A DNA stretch of 64,000 nucleotides from Cryomorphaceae bacterium (GTDB lineage: Bacteria > Bacteroidota > Bacteroidia > Flavobacteriales > Schleiferiaceae), in assembly GCA_007116495.1 (NCBI GenBank), contig SKIJ01000015.1:1-64000 (forward strand), read 5' to 3'. Positions within the stretch are counted from its first letter, which is position 1, and each line of letters opens with the position of its first letter. This document shows, piece after piece, positions 12,862 to 24,300 of the stretch. Under the pieces are notes generated by a model. That model made no database searches and was not told the DNA's origin. It saw only the letters and a list, made by a program, of their open reading frames with translations. The position numbers and the translations under genes were made by a program.

Positions 12862-14133
12862 TCACTGAATGTAACGCGATCCGCTTTCATCATTGTGATT
12901 GGGTCGCCACTTGTTGAGAATCTCATTTAATAAGGCAGCATTTTTCTCACTGGCACCGCGGTGGGCATCAAAGAAAACATCTGCGGCACGTGCAGCCTCA
13001 TTGCGGTTATGCTTTATCGCATACCTATCGACGAAAGCAATGAGTTCTTGAGCATTGAGCACTTCATGCCCTACACCCAACGCAATGAATGCTCCCGGCT
13101 CAAAAAACGTTTTGTGGCGAGGCCCGAAGGCAACGGGAATGCGATAAGCAACAGGCTCTAAGGTATTGTGCACACTTTTGCGAAAGCCCCCACCAATGAA
13201 TGCCATATCGGCAAAGCGGTATAAGCGAGAAAGCCAGCCAATGCGATCGATAACCAACACGCTGTACTGACGCACCTCGCTGATGTTAGTGATACTGGAA
13301 TAACGAATTGCACGGTTACTGAAACGTCTATCCAGTTCTTTTAAGTGCGCCTCCGACACGTCGTGCGGTGCTAAAACAATTTTAATATCGGGGTTGACCT
13401 GTAAGAGCTTTACGATCATCGACTCTTCTGCCTGCCATGAACTCCCCACCATCAAAACCAATTCGTTGCGGGTAAATGTTTCGATGACGTCGTTTGCAAA
13501 CTCTGTTTTCGACAAATCCACGACACGGTCTACACGAGTATCGCCGGTACAAACGACTTGTTGAAAATTCAAACCAACCAACAGCTGAGTAGAGGCTTTA
13601 TCTTGACAGGCCCAAAAGGCGGCTTGGCTGAGAATGCGTCTTGCGAAGCCCGCCCAAGGTTTGGTAAAAAAATGTGTTGGCCTCACCAAAACCGAGATAA
13701 ATCCCAATGGAACATTGGCGACACGTGCTTCGCGAACGTAGTGCAGCCACATGTCGTATTTGAAAAACACCGCCATTGCCGGATCCCAATGCGCGTACCA
13801 TTTTTGCGCGTTTCTGCGCCCATCGGCCGGGAGATAGGTAATATAATCGGCTGGTCCATCGCTGTGGGAAACCGAAAAGCCGGAGGGAGAATAAAACGTC
13901 AGTAAGATGTAATCCGTTGGATGTTGCTTGCGCCACAACTCCATAACTGGTCGACCCTGCTCGTACTCTCCCAACGAAGAAGCGTGAAACCATACCACCC
14001 GTTTTGTGGTATCGGGCATCTTTTGCCACTGATTCTTCCTACCCTTTATCCACGCGCGTGCTTTAGACGACCAAATTTGCGCCAAGTAAATGCCCGTATG
14101 GTATGCCCCAATGGCAATATTGTAAATGAACAT
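12862..14133 (-). CDS. waaA: 3-deoxy-D-manno-octulosonic acid (Kdo) transferase
   Basis: VWFHASSLGEYEQGRPV, LLTFYSPSGF, GSSWQAEE, ADMAFIGGGFRKSVHNTLEPVAYRIPVAFGPRH. Confidence 0.94.
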   Translation of the reverse strand: MFIYNIAIGAYHTGIYLAQIWSSKARAWIKGRKNQWQKMPDTTKRVVWFHASSLGEYEQGRPVMELWRKQHPTDYILLTFYSPSGFSVSHSDGPADYITYLPADGRRNAQKWYAHWDPAMAVFFKYDMWLHYVREARVANVPLGFISVLVRPTHFFTKPWAGFARRILSQAAFWACQDKASTQLLVGLNFQQVVCTGDTRVDRVVDLSKTEFANDVIETFTRNELVLMVGSSWQAEESMIVKLLQVNPDIKIVLAPHDVSEAHLKELDRRFSNRAIRYSSITNISEVRQYSVLVIDRIGWLSRLYRFADMAFIGGGFRKSVHNTLEPVAYRIPVAFGPRHKTFFEPGAFIALGVGHEVLNAQELIAFVDRYAIKHNRNEAARAADVFFDAHRGASEKNAALLNEILNKWRPNHNDESGSRYIQ

Positions 14134-15081: not shown

Positions 15082-16404
15082 ATGAAAAAAGCACTAATCA
15101 TTTTCGCTATTTTGTTTTCATCTGTGGCACATGCTCAGATATACGTAAAAATTGAGTTTCGCATTGGAGATCTAACAAACACCATTGCACTCCCATCCAG
15201 CGCACCGGATTCAATACTGGTTGAAGTAGATACGGTACCTTCAATTCCTTTTAATACTGCTGCATCATTCTACGCTTCAAAAGTAAATGCGTATACTTAC
15301 AGAGTAATTGACTCTTTTCTTGTTGGTCAAAATTTCTATGCCGGTAATTTAGACATTCAATGGAAGTATGCATGTGGGCAGACCGACTCTATAAGACAAA
15401 CAAGCTATCTAACTGTTAACATGAATGCTAACTTAGATACCATTATCAATTACATTGATTCTACAGGGTTTTGTGCCGGTACAGGTTTAGCTTCTGCTGA
15501 TCTATCTGTTAATGTAGAGGGCACTGTAAACTCAGCAAATCAAGTTGACCCGGTCAATGACCACACCATGCTTTATTTGCTGTCGCAAAATGCATCCGGC
15601 ACGATAAGTGTTTCTGATTCAGTAGGTCCATCAGGAAGCGCCAGAACATTTTCCAATCTCGACACCAATTTGCAGTACACCGTTATTGCCATACCACAAA
15701 GCACCCACAGCTTTCTGCATCAAAACAATTTACCTACATACCTAGGCAACCAAACCAATTGGCAAAACGCACTGTGGATCTCTGTGACGCCACAAACAAC
15801 CACGCAAACCATTACCTTGGCAACGAGCAACACAGGCAATGGCAGCGGAACGGCTGGTGGAAACACAAGTGGCGGCTCACCTCGAAACACCGGTGGCGAC
15901 CCGGTTGAAGATTTACTCATGATCCTCACCGATGTGTCTGGAAACATCATTGATTTTCAATTCACCGACTCAGACGGAGACTTTCTCTTTGAAATGCTTG
16001 ACGATGGCGAGTACCGCTTGTTTGGTGAATCACTTGGACGTATTTCCGATGTTGCTTCCTTTGACATTTCCAACAACATGACCGACATATCCGGCCTCAA
16101 CTTTGAGGTTACCGATACCGAAATCCTCTACCAAGGCTTGAACTTCTCGGTTGTCAATCAAGATCTGGCCATCTCCAAAGTTTACCCCAACCCCGTGCAA
16201 ACGCAGTTGCACATCGAATTCCAAAACAGCGACATCCAAACGGTTGACTTGGTGGATTTACAAGGACGCGTCATCGAAAGCCACTTGGTGAACGACAAGC
16301 CACTGTCTATCATAGAAATGAGTCATGTAAACAATGGTGTGTACCACCTGCGCTTTACCGACAAAAACGGACAGCAATTCAGTAGAAAAGTCATCAAAAT
16401 GTAA
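15082..16404 (+). CDS. T9SS type A sorting-domain secreted protein
   Basis: signal peptide MKKALIIFAILFSSVAHAQ; C-terminal SKVYPNPVQTQLHIEF...LQGRVI...VNNGVYHLRF...RKVIKM. Confidence 0.9.
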   Translation: MKKALIIFAILFSSVAHAQIYVKIEFRIGDLTNTIALPSSAPDSILVEVDTVPSIPFNTAASFYASKVNAYTYRVIDSFLVGQNFYAGNLDIQWKYACGQTDSIRQTSYLTVNMNANLDTIINYIDSTGFCAGTGLASADLSVNVEGTVNSANQVDPVNDHTMLYLLSQNASGTISVSDSVGPSGSARTFSNLDTNLQYTVIAIPQSTHSFLHQNNLPTYLGNQTNWQNALWISVTPQTTTQTITLATSNTGNGSGTAGGNTSGGSPRNTGGDPVEDLLMILTDVSGNIIDFQFTDSDGDFLFEMLDDGEYRLFGESLGRISDVASFDISNNMTDISGLNFEVTDTEILYQGLNFSVVNQDLAISKVYPNPVQTQLHIEFQNSDIQTVDLVDLQGRVIESHLVNDKPLSIIEMSHVNNGVYHLRFTDKNGQQFSRKVIKM

Positions 16405-16414
16405 TCGTGACAGC

Positions 16415-16463
16415 AGTGCAATGCAAGTTCGTTTAAATGACACTTGCATTGCACTCTTTTTTT
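16415..16463 (+). terminator. strong intrinsic terminator after the T9SS gene
   Basis: perfect 14-bp stem agtgcaatgcaagt/acttgcattgcact followed by a T run. Confidence 0.92.
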
Positions 16464-16544
16464 AAAGCTTTTACTCAGTATTCATGCACAATTACTAATC
16501 AACACAGAGTGTAAACTTTCAAACATGTAATTTGCATGCTAAAC

Positions 16545-16570
16545 GGGGAGGTGACTTGTTTCACTTCCCC
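16545..16570 (+). other. hairpin in the 5' leader of the sigma-factor operon
   Basis: ggggaggtga-cttgtt-tcacttcccc (10 bp with one G-U), 20 nt before ATG 16591, no strong T tract. Confidence 0.6.
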
Positions 16571-16590
16571 TTTACTACTTAAAAAAATTA

Positions 16591-17157
16591 ATGTCCTACA
16601 TAGACAAAAGACTGATCAAAAAGTGTATCGAAGGCAAGGAAAAGTCGATACATTCTTTATACAATATCTGCTTTAACGATATGTATAAAGTCAGTGCGCG
16701 CTATGGCAAACACCCGGAGGACATACAAGAGATCATCGACAACAGCTTTATGAAAGTTCTCAAAGGACTTAAATCATACAGCGACACATCCAAATTCGGG
16801 TCTTGGGTTAGAACAATAGCCATCAACACGGCACTGGATTTTGTTCGCAAGAAGCAACGAGAACTCAAGTTGTTTTCGGACGTAGACATAAGTGCAGAGG
16901 CCAATGTAAATGCACAGCCTACCCAAGCATGGGACGACAGTCTTGAGGCCAGCGATATTTTTAAGATGATGCAGCAGCTGCCCGATCAAAACCGCATCAT
17001 TCTCAACCTATTCGCCATAGAAGGTTACTCTCACAAAGAGATTGGCGACATGTTAGACATCAGCGAAACGGCATCTCGTTGGTATCTCAGCGAAGCAAGA
17101 AAAATGATGAAGAAACACATTACGAGCAAAAACAAGTACCGACATGAAGGCGCATGA
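16591..17157 (+). CDS. RNA polymerase sigma-70 factor, ECF subfamily
   Basis: region 2 (SWVRTIAINTALDFVRKKQRE) and region 4 (LPDQNRIILNLFAIEGYSHKEIGDMLDISETASRWYLSEARKMM). Confidence 0.95.
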   Translation: MSYIDKRLIKKCIEGKEKSIHSLYNICFNDMYKVSARYGKHPEDIQEIIDNSFMKVLKGLKSYSDTSKFGSWVRTIAINTALDFVRKKQRELKLFSDVDISAEANVNAQPTQAWDDSLEASDIFKMMQQLPDQNRIILNLFAIEGYSHKEIGDMLDISETASRWYLSEARKMMKKHITSKNKYRHEGA

Positions 17158-18577
17158 CCCATTTGATGACTGGCTGAAACGTCAGGTAGACAACGCGCAG
17201 GCGCCCAATCCTGACGCGTACTGGAAGAAAACTTCCCAAAAAGTTTCCGCTAAAAACGGAAGCTGGACGTTTATTGTGCCTACGTTATTACTCCTATTCC
17301 TCACCGCCGGAGGAGCGCTTTATTACTTTACTGCTAACGACAATCTGAATCCGATTAAAGAAGATAAAAATATTGGCCTTGAAAGTAATGAGGAGGGTGG
17401 GGTTTATGACTTTGACGATGACAATAACGATGACTTTGACCTTGACAATGACTTTGATCTTGACGATGACAACTTATTAGTGCGTGATGGCGTAGAATTG
17501 GAGCGTGTGATAAAGGAAGACAATCAATCTACGCCTACCGGACTTGATGACACAAGTCATTTAGATGAAACGACAAATAAGGAGTCATTCGTTCAAGCAC
17601 CAGACCGTATAGAGGAAACGTCAGATGAAACGCTTCAAACCAGTAAATCCAACACTGAAATTGCAAAAATTGCAAAGACTGATGACAAGGAGATTATCGC
17701 AAAAACCAGTGATAAAATAGCAGCAATCAACACAGTTGCAACAAGTGAATATACCTCTGAAACACCTCAGAAAGCAGCGGATACGAAACAGGTAGAATCA
17801 GCGCGTTTACAGGAAGAAGACGAAACCGGAGAAAGTCCTGATGACGAAGGATTCACTGAAGAAAAGGATGTTGACGCAGATGATAAAACAGATGTTATAG
17901 ATGGTAAAGAAGACTCTAAAGTTGTCATATTAGATGAAGAAGAAAAAGACGACGTAGCCAAAGATGTAGAGAATGATGAGGATGAAGAGGAAATCATTCC
18001 GGAGATTTTGAAAAAGATAGCCGATCAACCCAAGTGGTCGGCCTACTCTCGCTTAGGCGGGGGCATTCTACTTCCTGTAGATAACAACATTATGCCGGCT
18101 TTATCTCTAGACCTTGGCGCATCTTACGATTTTAGTCCGAGTTGGAGCATACAGTTTGGAGTAGCCATCACCGGTTTGTCAAATTTGAATCAATCGTACA
18201 CCGTTCGTCAAATAAGCTATGATTTTGACGTAAACGAATCCGGCACTGATGTTACCTTTAGGGATGCATTGTATCTTCAAATACCTATTGGTGTTCAGTA
18301 TCGACTAAATCGCCATGCCTTCAGTGCGGGGGTATTACCGGGGGTATTCCTTGACGGCAGAGCTACGTTTACCGGAATTGAAGACGGAATTCAGCAAAGC
18401 ACATGGGGATACAACGAGAACATTCAACAATGGAACATTGCCATCGGTTTGAGTTATGATTATTCAATCAGCAAAGATTGGCAAATGGGATTGTCGTTCT
18501 ACAGCAGTCCGTTTACCATTTTTGAGGACACAAAGCGCTTTCAGTACATTCAAATTCGCATGACAAAATGGTGGTAA
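17144..18577 (+). CDS. putative dual-membrane-spanning anti-sigma factor: cytoplasmic N-terminus, TM helix, long acidic linker, C-terminal outer-membrane beta-barrel
   Basis: 14-bp overlap with the ECF sigma gene; TM WTFIVPTLLLLFLTAGGALYYFTA (aa 41-64); D/E/S/T-rich linker aa ~65-297; amphipathic strands aa ~298-477 ending in KWW. Confidence 0.75.
   Translation: MKAHDPFDDWLKRQVDNAQAPNPDAYWKKTSQKVSAKNGSWTFIVPTLLLLFLTAGGALYYFTANDNLNPIKEDKNIGLESNEEGGVYDFDDDNNDDFDLDNDFDLDDDNLLVRDGVELERVIKEDNQSTPTGLDDTSHLDETTNKESFVQAPDRIEETSDETLQTSKSNTEIAKIAKTDDKEIIAKTSDKIAAINTVATSEYTSETPQKAADTKQVESARLQEEDETGESPDDEGFTEEKDVDADDKTDVIDGKEDSKVVILDEEEKDDVAKDVENDEDEEEIIPEILKKIADQPKWSAYSRLGGGILLPVDNNIMPALSLDLGASYDFSPSWSIQFGVAITGLSNLNQSYTVRQISYDFDVNESGTDVTFRDALYLQIPIGVQYRLNRHAFSAGVLPGVFLDGRATFTGIEDGIQQSTWGYNENIQQWNIAIGLSYDYSISKDWQMGLSFYSSPFTIFEDTKRFQYIQIRMTKWW
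17408..17473 (+). repeat. in-frame degenerate Asp-rich tandem repeat in the linker
   Basis: DFDDDNND-DFDLDN-DFDLDDDN encoded by three units each beginning GACTTTGA. Confidence 0.7.
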
Positions 18578-19698
18578 CATTGAAACAACTTTTGCTTTAC
18601 ATCTCAGCCATATTGGTTCTGATGAGTTGTGCCAAAAACGACGTCCCCGAAGATTGGGAAGGCGAGCCCGTATTTGTTTTTAACGGCAGCATTGGAGGAA
18701 AACCTGTGCTCTATCAAGCGGGTGTAGACGGACGAAAAATGCACACAGACTACTTTAAAGACTCCACAGATTTATGGGCCATGCGCGGTGTATTAGCTCC
18801 GAGAACGTGCATGGATTGTCCGGGGAGTTTAGAGGTTAGTTTGTACGACGAAGAGCCACAGCCATCGGTAAACAAAGACCGCAGTGCATACACCGCTCGT
18901 CCGGAATGGATTCTCCCCAGCGGTCGTCCACAAACCATCAACGACACCATATATGTATTTACGTTTGTTGCAGATACAAGCAACGCATCACCGCAAAACA
19001 TCACGTGGGATTTTCAAAATGGTGATACATCTTCTCAATACGCGGTAGAGCGGGTATTCAGAAACGCGCCGTTCACCAATGTTTGTTTGACCTACAGAAC
19101 TCCTACTTGCTCCAGAAATATTTGCAATCGCATTGAAGGCATGCAAAACCGCCCCTGCCGCATATTTTTTGGCGTTCAACAAATGTCGGGTAACACCTAT
19201 CGGTTTGACGCTCCTCGTGGGGTGCTTTGGAACTTTGGCGATGGCGGAACGGCATTTAACGATACAGTGGTTCACACCTTTGCATCCGACACCGCCATTT
19301 ACAGGGTCTGCGCGACACTTGGAGGAAGTTGCAACACGCAGTTTTGTCGCGATATTGCCATGCCACAGTCGGCAGAGCAATGTGCGCCCGGTTACAACTA
19401 CACCGTTCGCGACAGCATAGAAGAAAGCACATCCCCGGCAGGATTTGCTGGAAAAGTGGTCATAAAATGGACCGATCGTCAAGGGGAAACGTACGTCAAT
19501 TACCGCGAAAACAGGTCGCCTTCGAGTAGTGAATACGTCAAAGCAAAACACGTAGAAGAATACAAGAAAAACAGCAATGGCTATCCCACAAAGAAAATCA
19601 CGTCAGATGTTGATGTTTGGTTGTTTAACACCGGCGACCCGACGGATTCGGTTGCGTTAAAAGCCAATGATTTTGTATTTGCATTGCCACAGCCCTAA
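18568..19698 (+). CDS. putative lipoprotein with two PKD-like motifs, third gene of the sigma operon
   Basis: lipobox AILVLMSC; ITWDFQNGDTSSQYAVERVF and LWNFGDGGTAFNDTVVHTF; 10-bp overlap with the previous CDS. Confidence 0.75.
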   Translation: MVVTLKQLLLYISAILVLMSCAKNDVPEDWEGEPVFVFNGSIGGKPVLYQAGVDGRKMHTDYFKDSTDLWAMRGVLAPRTCMDCPGSLEVSLYDEEPQPSVNKDRSAYTARPEWILPSGRPQTINDTIYVFTFVADTSNASPQNITWDFQNGDTSSQYAVERVFRNAPFTNVCLTYRTPTCSRNICNRIEGMQNRPCRIFFGVQQMSGNTYRFDAPRGVLWNFGDGGTAFNDTVVHTFASDTAIYRVCATLGGSCNTQFCRDIAMPQSAEQCAPGYNYTVRDSIEESTSPAGFAGKVVIKWTDRQGETYVNYRENRSPSSSEYVKAKHVEEYKKNSNGYPTKKITSDVDVWLFNTGDPTDSVALKANDFVFALPQP

Positions 19699-22029: not shown

Positions 22030-24300
22030 CTAAAATGGATAACCCAATGCAACGTTCCATGCGATGCGACTAAACCGAAAATCGTCGGTAATGTAACGAT
22101 TTCCCTCGGGTTGATTGGGGTTGTAGAGTGGGTATGCCATATCGAGTCGAATAACAAAAAAACCAAAGTCGTAGCGCACCCCAACACCACTTCCCAGGGC
22201 CATACTTTCCAACAAGGTTTCCCAACGCAATACCAAATCGGGATTTTCGTCGGATACCCGTGAGCCATCCGGCAGCCTCAAGTCTTCGTAGAAAATGTTT
22301 CCGGCATCGAGAAAAACAGCACCCTTAAAGCGTTCGTATATGGGAAAGCGATACTCTAAATTAGACAACAGCTTGATGGGTGCAGTATTAAATAGCGTGT
22401 CGGCGCCTTGGTTGGTACCCGGCCCTAATCGGTACGGAAGAAATGCGCGTATATCGTTATTTCCACCTGCAAAGTAACGCATCTCAAACGGCGGTTGATA
22501 GCCAAATACCGGGTCGATGCTGTTGCCGTAGGCACGGGTATAGCCGGCAAACACACGCCATACTAAACTGGTTTTAGGGCTGAGTGTCCAAAACTGTCGG
22601 TAGTCGATTTCGGCTTTAACGTACTGAGCAAAATTGACCCCCATAATGGTAGACGCCCCTAAAGAATCGGTGGGGAATTCTGCAGCGGCGTTGATGCCGG
22701 CCAGGGTATTTCCGGCAACTTCGACCATACCGCGAAAGAAATACCGCAGTGGTTTTTTACTGGTGAGCTGGTTGTTGTAGGTATAGGTATAGCGCGTGGA
22801 GCTGATGAAGGTATTTCGAAATCCGAATAAGAAGTTGAGGTTTTGTAAAAATTCATCGCGAAGCTGACTGATGCGAACAACATTAACATCCACGAAGTCC
22901 ACAGCATGGGTTTGATTCAAATCTTGTTGCCATATGTACCCCAAACTACCGCGATAAAGGATGCGGTCGAACTCCACACGACTCTGTCTACCGGCAGATA
23001 AGGCCATACGCGTACGGGGCTGCATGCGCCTCGGGATGATTCCAACGGTATTGAACGGAAGTAAAAAACGCGGAAAGAGCAGCGACACCTCTGCACTGAG
23101 TTCAAAGGTGTTGAAAAATTGGTCGGTAGCCAATTCACCAATGGCTTGTGATTCAATACCTCCGCGAAGGCGCACATTGAGGTTCTCCCCTCCACCGAAG
23201 GCGTTTCGGTTTATCCAGCTGATGTTGGCATTTGTTCCCAATTGCGCAGCCGTATTGAGGGCTTCAATTTCGGCAGTAAAACTTCTGCGCGGGAGCGGTA
23301 CCATAGAAATACTCGCAATCAACCCTCTTCCAGTCGTATCGTCTTCCTCCGCACGAAAATTGATTTCGGTGCTGCTGAATAACCGCAAACGGTTGATGTG
23401 CTGGTAGGAGTTTTTGATGCGATTTTCGCGGTAACCGGTGCCGGGGGTAAACTCCAGCACATCGGTGAGCACTCTCGGAGCTAACCAAATGGAGTCCTTG
23501 CTTTCGTAGAGAATCTCGTAGCCCATAAACGATGTCGTATCGGCATTCCTATTGCGCACGCGATAATCAGGATTGATAACGATGCGCGAGATCACATTGG
23601 GTACCGGTGTAACAGATATCAGGGAATCACCTTGTTGGCGCTGTTGATTGGGAATATTGATGGTGAGGTCGATTTCACCGGGATGCTGAAGTGTATCTAC
23701 CGTAAAGCGAATGCGGTCGCGAGGAAATGCAAAATAACCATTGTTGCGAAACAACGTGGTGAGTCGCTCGCGTTCCTCTTCCATCTTTGAAAGATTAAAG
23801 GGATTATCGGCTTTCACTGTACTGTTGTTTATCTCTCTTTGGTGCAAGCGCCTTAAGCCATCGTCTTCAATGTTGTACTGAATGCTTCGAATATTAAACT
23901 GTGGCCCCGTCTCAATGCGATATATAATACCGGCTTTTTTATCGCCCTTCTCCTCGTAGGTGTAACTTGCATTAGCACGAAAGTACCCTTGATTAATGGC
24001 ATATTGCTTCAGCTGCTGGGTTGAGCGGATGGCCAAAGCCGTGTCTACAATGGTTGGTATGTATCCAAACAGTTTGCGTGGTGCCGGCTGTTGGCGAATA
24101 ACGGCCATCGCACTGCGATCGCTGCTCTTTTTTCCATTGATGAGCAATGTGGTATTCCATAGTGCACGATCACCGGGCTGAACATTGCGCACGGATCGGC
24201 AAGAGGAGAATACTGCAAGGAGGGCGACAAACACAAATATAGACCAACATTTAGAGGCTCGACAAACGAGCAGCTTGGTCATCATTTGTGTGGTGTTCAT
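22030..24300 (-). CDS. BamA/TamA-family outer membrane lipoprotein (TamL-like)
   Basis: lipobox VFSSC followed by RSVRNVQPGDRALWNTTLLINGK; POTRA-like region; MRYFAGGNNDIRAFLPYRLGPG; C-terminal barrel ending in F. Confidence 0.9.
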   Translation of the reverse strand: MNTTQMMTKLLVCRASKCWSIFVFVALLAVFSSCRSVRNVQPGDRALWNTTLLINGKKSSDRSAMAVIRQQPAPRKLFGYIPTIVDTALAIRSTQQLKQYAINQGYFRANASYTYEEKGDKKAGIIYRIETGPQFNIRSIQYNIEDDGLRRLHQREINNSTVKADNPFNLSKMEEERERLTTLFRNNGYFAFPRDRIRFTVDTLQHPGEIDLTINIPNQQRQQGDSLISVTPVPNVISRIVINPDYRVRNRNADTTSFMGYEILYESKDSIWLAPRVLTDVLEFTPGTGYRENRIKNSYQHINRLRLFSSTEINFRAEEDDTTGRGLIASISMVPLPRRSFTAEIEALNTAAQLGTNANISWINRNAFGGGENLNVRLRGGIESQAIGELATDQFFNTFELSAEVSLLFPRFLLPFNTVGIIPRRMQPRTRMALSAGRQSRVEFDRILYRGSLGYIWQQDLNQTHAVDFVDVNVVRISQLRDEFLQNLNFLFGFRNTFISSTRYTYTYNNQLTSKKPLRYFFRGMVEVAGNTLAGINAAAEFPTDSLGASTIMGVNFAQYVKAEIDYRQFWTLSPKTSLVWRVFAGYTRAYGNSIDPVFGYQPPFEMRYFAGGNNDIRAFLPYRLGPGTNQGADTLFNTAPIKLLSNLEYRFPIYERFKGAVFLDAGNIFYEDLRLPDGSRVSDENPDLVLRWETLLESMALGSGVGVRYDFGFFVIRLDMAYPLYNPNQPEGNRYITDDFRFSRIAWNVALGYPF

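Follow-up and report, generated by a model that had tools for sequence, protein, structure and literature searches.

A putative Dma/Das-type sigma and anti-sigma locus with a conserved PKD lipoprotein gene in a Cryomorphaceae bacterium

How a single protein relays the state of the outer membrane to transcription has come under study only recently, and so far for the most part in gut Bacteroidales. By definition, Dma proteins begin with an anti-sigma domain and end in a barrel, with a TM helix and a long disordered tether in between, and an ECF21 sigma factor gene adjoins theirs (PMC13088901). Such an anti-sigma factor was reported earlier in Phocaeicola vulgatus by Evans et al. (PMC9308784) and was later named Reo (PMC13114119). 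From BT_1559 to BT_1555, the gene order is sigma factor, Dma, DUF4943, DUF4858 and NMO/FabK-like (PMC13088901). Deletion of dma2 was shown to activate its sigma factor and operon (PMC13088901), ecfO-reo is the most upregulated pair after treatment with BcpT or Bd-A (PMC13114119), and bacteroidetocin A inhibits BamA (PMC9308784).

The locus considered here belongs to a 2.3-Mb MAG of a Cryomorphaceae bacterium (Flavobacteriales, Schleiferiaceae; GCA_007116495.1), in which the first 64,000 nucleotides of contig SKIJ01000015.1 were analysed (the window). It consists of three co-directional genes, referred to as the triad (Table 1), whose overlaps of 14 and 10 bp agree with a preliminary description made from the sequence alone. 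The first gene, described there as an ECF sigma factor, is recognized as such by Sigma70_r2 and Sigma70_r4_2 (both E about 2e-11) and by sigma70-ECF (E 7e-25) in Pfam and NCBIfam searches. According to the ORF list and Pfam, gene 2 has no FecR match and the three-gene operon contains no TonB-dependent receptor gene.

Table 1. Features of the triad and its leader region (positions in the window)
Feature	Position	Strand	Evidence
Hairpin followed by a T-run, probably ending the upstream T9SS-cargo transcript	16412..16457	+	Fold z -4.7
Stable hairpin 16 nt before the sigma start codon (ATG), possible leader element	16540..16574	+	Fold z -3.85
Gene 1, ECF sigma factor, 188 aa, Das/Dma-linked clade	16591..17157	+	Pfam/NCBIfam, tree
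Gene 2, putative Dma-type anti-sigma, 477 aa	17144..18577	+	Pfam, AlphaFold model, Foldseek, relatives
Gene 2, predicted cytoplasmic head, aa 1-40	17144..17263	+	AF2 helices 2-17 and 23-35; Trp27; weak module HMM
Gene 2, single TM helix, aa 41-64	17264..17335	+	Hydropathy, AF2 helix 41-64
Gene 2, acidic disordered tether, predicted periplasmic, aa 65-296	17336..18031	+	pLDDT mostly <50; net charge -53
Gene 2, predicted C-terminal 8-stranded outer-membrane beta-barrel, aa 297-477	18032..18574	+	Pfam, AF2, Foldseek
Gene 3, lipoprotein, 376 aa, family of about 375 aa after the Dma barrel gene	18568..19698	+	Pfam, AF2, profile search
Gene 3, signal peptide and lipobox (LMSC, Cys21)	18568..18630	+	Cys21 invariant in 14- and 33-member alignments
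Gene 3, N-terminal beta domain, aa 37-136, family-specific, search profile	18676..18975	+	AF2, profile search
Gene 3, two PKD domains, about aa 145-190 and 202-270	19000..19377	+	PKD_4 twice, AF2, ColH PKD profile matches
Gene 3, C-terminal beta domain, aa 275-376	19390..19695	+	AF2

The AlphaFold model of gene 2 alone, for which an alignment of 34 sequences served as input, predicts two helices in the head, a helix over the hydrophobic segment, disorder from about residue 65 to 286 and a barrel at residues 297-476 with pLDDT mostly above 90, whose strands number eight if the interrupted strand 363-388 is taken as one. Both the single TM helix and the barrel had been claimed in the preliminary description, which named the absence of either as evidence against it, and both are present in the prediction. 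The barrel is also matched by OMP_b-brl_2 (PF13568, residues 319-453, E 1.6e-6), and a Foldseek comparison against the PDB showed the gene 2 model to resemble the small outer-membrane barrels Ail (9.5e-8), OmpA (3.5e-7) and OmpX (4.9e-5). The linker, noted earlier as some 230 residues rich in D, E, S and T, indeed comprises 43 D, 34 E, 13 S and 19 T among 232 residues, and it is unusually acidic (32% D+E versus a median of 13%). Linker lengths ranged from 122 to 294 residues in the 73 Dma proteins measured; since a residue at full extension covers about 0.36 nm, even the shortest of them (about 44 nm) would be able to span the periplasm. The succession of head, TM helix, tether and outer-membrane barrel in gene 2 is well predicted, and the model suggests a protein that would be localised across both membranes.

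The head of gene 2 has no match to any Pfam or NCBIfam anti-sigma family, and its putative sigma-binding function is approached through its relatives, among which Trp27 is nearly invariant. A profile of a module of about 32 residues, derived from single-copy heads with the window genus and Bacteroides excluded, detected the module in nearly all Dma proteins; no match below 0.1 was obtained in 1860 shuffled sequences, and the 6 matches among 747 background ORFs were all truncated Dma copies. The head in the window matches this profile weakly (i-E 0.098), the congener heads at 0.014 (L038) and 0.036, and the Bacteroides heads at 0.013, 0.067 or undetectably. One module copy was counted in 72 proteins, the window gene 2 included, two in 7, three in 8, four in 3 and none in 3, some of these entries being near-identical. 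Tandem arrays of two to four modules before the TM helix were seen at the N-termini of Dma proteins in several Flavobacteriales (L043, L048, L049/L067, L059, L061, L064, L066, L078, L116), and in Crocinitomix the heads (about 160 aa) seem to be repetitive too, though more diverged. Behind a second ECF gene in the genome of the window (L219, 331-1522) lies the gene for a 230-aa protein that has a similar head motif (module 0.087) and a TM helix but no barrel. As the motif also heads this barrel-less TM protein, the module may be portable to other sensors. In more distant members of the phylum (L191, L192, L195), a sigma factor and proteins made of module, TM helix and barrel occur in other gene contexts that lack gene 3.

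Gene 3 had been presented as a lipoprotein with two PKD-like motifs, and this is what was found: the lipobox cysteine is followed by a protein that PKD_4 matches in two stretches (E 7.9e-9), and the confident AlphaFold model (pLDDT 88) displays two PKD domains flanked by one beta domain on each side. A profile search with gene 3 matches ColH PKD chains, and the whole chain gave no significant structural match in Foldseek (best E 8.5e-3). No similarity was detectable between gene 3 and the DUF4943 protein that occupies the equivalent place in Bacteroides dma2 operons. The residues after Cys21 (AKNDV) partially resemble the surface export signal C-X-K-(D/E)2 (PMC5080379), which some gene 3 relatives match fully (CEKDE, CSKED), so that surface exposure of gene 3 is plausible. 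Neither the PKD lipoprotein partner nor the tandem modules were found described in the literature searched, which did not extend to the founding Dma1 report, and an earlier description of either is possible.

Within the same taxonomic order, the triad was found at 13 further loci. GTDB species genomes were also scanned with the sigma factor, and the 80 nearest loci were picked by sigma similarity and not by their neighbours. A complete next ORF was available at 71 of them, with an N-terminal TM segment in all 71 and a barrel-profile match in 59; a gene 3 homologue then follows in 38 of the 71. Culturable relatives with the triad include Phaeodactylibacter xiamenensis (L123) and Crocinitomix algicola (L096). 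The triad is thus not a chance arrangement, given the 13 syntenic loci and its recurrence at these nearest sigma loci. The barrel profile was rejected as a family-specific marker, as it also matches an ordinary barrel (L202). Among gene 3 matches in the taxonomic order of the window, each of the 12 outside the window that extend past the PKD region proved to be a triad. Across the phylum, a full-length gene 3 profile was dropped, as it was swamped by generic PKD matches, and for this reason the N-terminal domain alone, without PKD, was used. This domain matches 68 of 388 class-level genomes that were sampled independently, mostly in frames of 370-410 codons, and a Dma-type barrel ORF lies directly upstream in 30 of the 30 gene 3 loci examined (the best 30 of about 80 matches, window included). 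Conservation of gene 3 beside gene 2, on which the preliminary description had staked its proposal, is therefore upheld by the further triads, the nearest sigma loci and the best matches alike. The suggestion that gene 3 might be a partner, of a sensory or plug type, is strengthened as far as partnership goes, gene 3 being a fixed neighbour of the Dma barrel among these best matches. Duplicated triads in two genomes (G013 and G025) have kept matched partners for all three genes. The lipoprotein partner is apparently obligate and apparently undescribed. Elsewhere, in Saprospiraceae and related loci (L051, L052, L054, L101), the third position is taken by other lipobox proteins.

Two Bacteroides-like genomes, reached through a NigD family search, served for comparison with the described systems. 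Two of their loci (L199 and L200) have the order sigma, Dma, DUF4943, DUF4858 and NMO/FabK-like, and two others (L215 and L216) have a sigma-Dma pair beside a divergent nigD; on gene order and family matches, the former are probably dma2-type and the latter dma1-type loci. A search of the phylum genomes with PF16301 (DUF4943) returned one locus, which is not a dma operon. When the two Bacteroides-like genomes were searched with a profile of the window sigma family, the four best matches were the Dma-linked sigma factors. A quick ML tree placed the Dma-linked sigma factors (window, relatives, Das1, Das2 and Das3-like) apart from ten other ECF factors with an SH-aLRT of 99, the window sigma factor falling in a largely triad-bearing subclade (90) and the Bacteroides Das factors in another (95), with fine placement unsure because of long branches. 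The assignment of gene 1 to ECF21 is by the side of the tree that it shares with Das1 and Das2, and not by an ECF21 model. The preliminary description had likened gene 2 to the Dma proteins of Bacteroides, and architecture, gene order and sigma phylogeny all bear this reading out: as judged from these, the locus is a variant member of the Dma/Das kind (Dma1, Dma2, Reo), and gene 3 is its variant feature.

Upstream of the triad, the hairpin nearest to the sigma start codon has a counterpart in a congener (L038, fold z -7.55). Scans of the leader for sigma-70 promoters and simple terminators returned nothing, the terminator scan having missed the hairpin at 16412-16457, and no promoter motif common to three congeneric triads was found. 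The gene before this hairpin (15082-16404) bears a T9SS sorting tail by Pfam, as do 18 of the 40 upstream ORFs tested (four from triads, and 36 of the 42 that lie upstream on the same strand at the scanned loci). Picked by their C-terminal residues, T9SS-tailed genes lie upstream of the sigma gene at L050, L038, L062, L072, L094, L107, L119 and L123, and after gene 3 in Crocinitomix (L077, 9533-10621). Other envelope genes surround the triad, both on the minus strand: one for a Kdo transferase (12862-14133) and one for an Omp85/POTRA protein that may have a lipobox (22030-24300).

Altogether, the locus probably encodes a unit for signalling across the envelope, of the Dma/Das kind and with a lipoprotein subunit of its own, which would sense damage or faulty assembly and release its sigma factor by proteolysis. 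At rest, the two-helix head of gene 2 would keep the sigma factor at the inner membrane, while the acidic disordered tether would cross the periplasm to a barrel seated in the outer membrane next to the gene 3 lipoprotein. A failure of barrel assembly or retention, or an encounter of the gene 3 lipoprotein with its signal, would expose the tether or remove its anchor, and proteolysis finishing at the inner membrane, where a protease of the RseP type would act, would release the sigma factor to turn on an envelope-protective regulon and its own operon. Most likely, the signal would be damage to the outer membrane or to barrel assembly, with gene 3 as a sensing or gating partner; the support is indirect, through the strong induction of ecfO-reo by BcpT and Bd-A, the block of BamA by bacteroidetocin A and the derepression seen on dma2 loss, and the evidence for a membrane-damage signal comes from the Bacteroidales relatives and not from triads with the gene 3 lipoprotein.

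The main alternative is that gene 3 is a regulon output, a surface lipoprotein produced on release of the sigma factor, in the manner of NigD or of the DUF4943 protein next to Bacteroides dma genes. In Bacteroidales, anti-sigma loss induces nigD genes and BT_1557 (DUF4943) (PMC13088901, PMC13114119), membership in an autoregulated operon would induce gene 3 too, and gene 3 diverges faster than the barrel (51% versus 81% identity in a closely related pair). However, NigDs exist in several copies per species (PMC13114119) whereas the gene 3 domain always sits beside a Dma barrel among the best matches, gene 3 mostly overlaps the barrel gene or starts within a few bases of it at the nearest sigma loci, and the distances of barrel and lipoprotein remain correlated once the sigma factor is allowed for (partial r 0.37, 0 of 500 permutations, with incomplete control of relatedness), which makes a simple output possible but rather unlikely. 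We lean slightly towards gene 3 as a sensing or gating subunit.

As for the passage of the signal, ligand binding or displacement could be transmitted along the barrel and tether by tension or conformation, with no proteolysis involved. The predicted joining of surface and cytoplasm by one continuous chain would suit this, the authors of the Dma2 study propose surface sensing of an unknown glycan (PMC13088901), and RseP (Peptidase_M50) was not found in this MAG, compared to its detection in all 14 controls. RseP is nevertheless present in 12 of the 12 relatives searched, one of them of the same genus; its absence here is for that reason most likely an assembly gap, and the idea that regulated proteolysis is impossible for want of RseP was dropped. 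Additionally, the tether, being long, flexible and disordered, would transmit tension poorly unless stretched, so that signalling of this sort appears unlikely. An RseP gene was also seen within a few kb of the triad in four genomes (G059, G033, G067 and G042, near L043, L048, L049 and L046) of one family, which may count once. It might finally be argued that gene 2 regulates no sigma factor and is a barrel protein whose N-terminal anchor is unrelated, given a head that resembles no catalogued anti-sigma family and has a putative sigma binding; but the constant adjacency to a Das-clade ECF gene in distant families, the confinement of the head module to ORFs after those sigma genes (truncated copies aside) and the genetics of the Bacteroides relatives render this very improbable.

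The locus and its relatives suggest a design that occurs widely among Bacteroidota, whose lipoprotein partner is conserved and whose putative sigma-binding head is modular; gene 3 is a concrete candidate for the missing sensing component. The proteins with one to four modules form a natural copy-number series for sigma stoichiometry. We suggest only tentatively that these systems make up a class of three-part envelope sensors, a tethered barrel anti-sigma factor with an obligate surface lipoprotein that detects or gates the signal; in some lineages, an up to fourfold multiplication of the module would turn the anti-sigma factor into a multivalent sigma store.

Compared to the described systems, the locus is close to Dma2/Das2 of B. 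thetaiotaomicron (BT_1558/BT_1559), with which it shares a related sigma factor, the order of sigma gene, Dma gene and a third, lipoprotein-like gene, and an anti-sigma protein composed of N-terminal head, TM helix, long disordered tether and C-terminal barrel, all predicted in the window. It differs in that the third protein of Dma2 belongs to DUF4943, measures 174-175 aa in the Bacteroides-like loci and has a lipobox but no PKD domain, and in that the Dma2 operon continues with the DUF4858 and NMO/FabK-like genes; in the window, the gene after gene 3 encodes RNase R on the other strand, and the dma2 operon order is absent. Dma1/Das1 of B. thetaiotaomicron and EcfO-Reo of B. fragilis and Phocaeicola vulgatus share the anti-sigma architecture and the sigma clade, and a NigD lipoprotein gene adjoins the sigma gene in the loci examined; unlike gene 3, NigD is divergently transcribed, belongs to another family and forms no triad operon. 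In FecI/FecR cell-surface signalling, too, an event at the outer membrane is relayed to an ECF sigma factor, but this requires both a TonB-dependent receptor as a separate protein and FecR in the periplasm, and the window operon encodes neither. Gene 3 itself recalls the PKD surface glycan-binding lipoproteins such as SGBP-B of Bacteroides fluxus (7kv6), an outer-membrane lipoprotein with a PKD domain, although the structural similarity is weak and the window operon lacks SusC and SusD genes.
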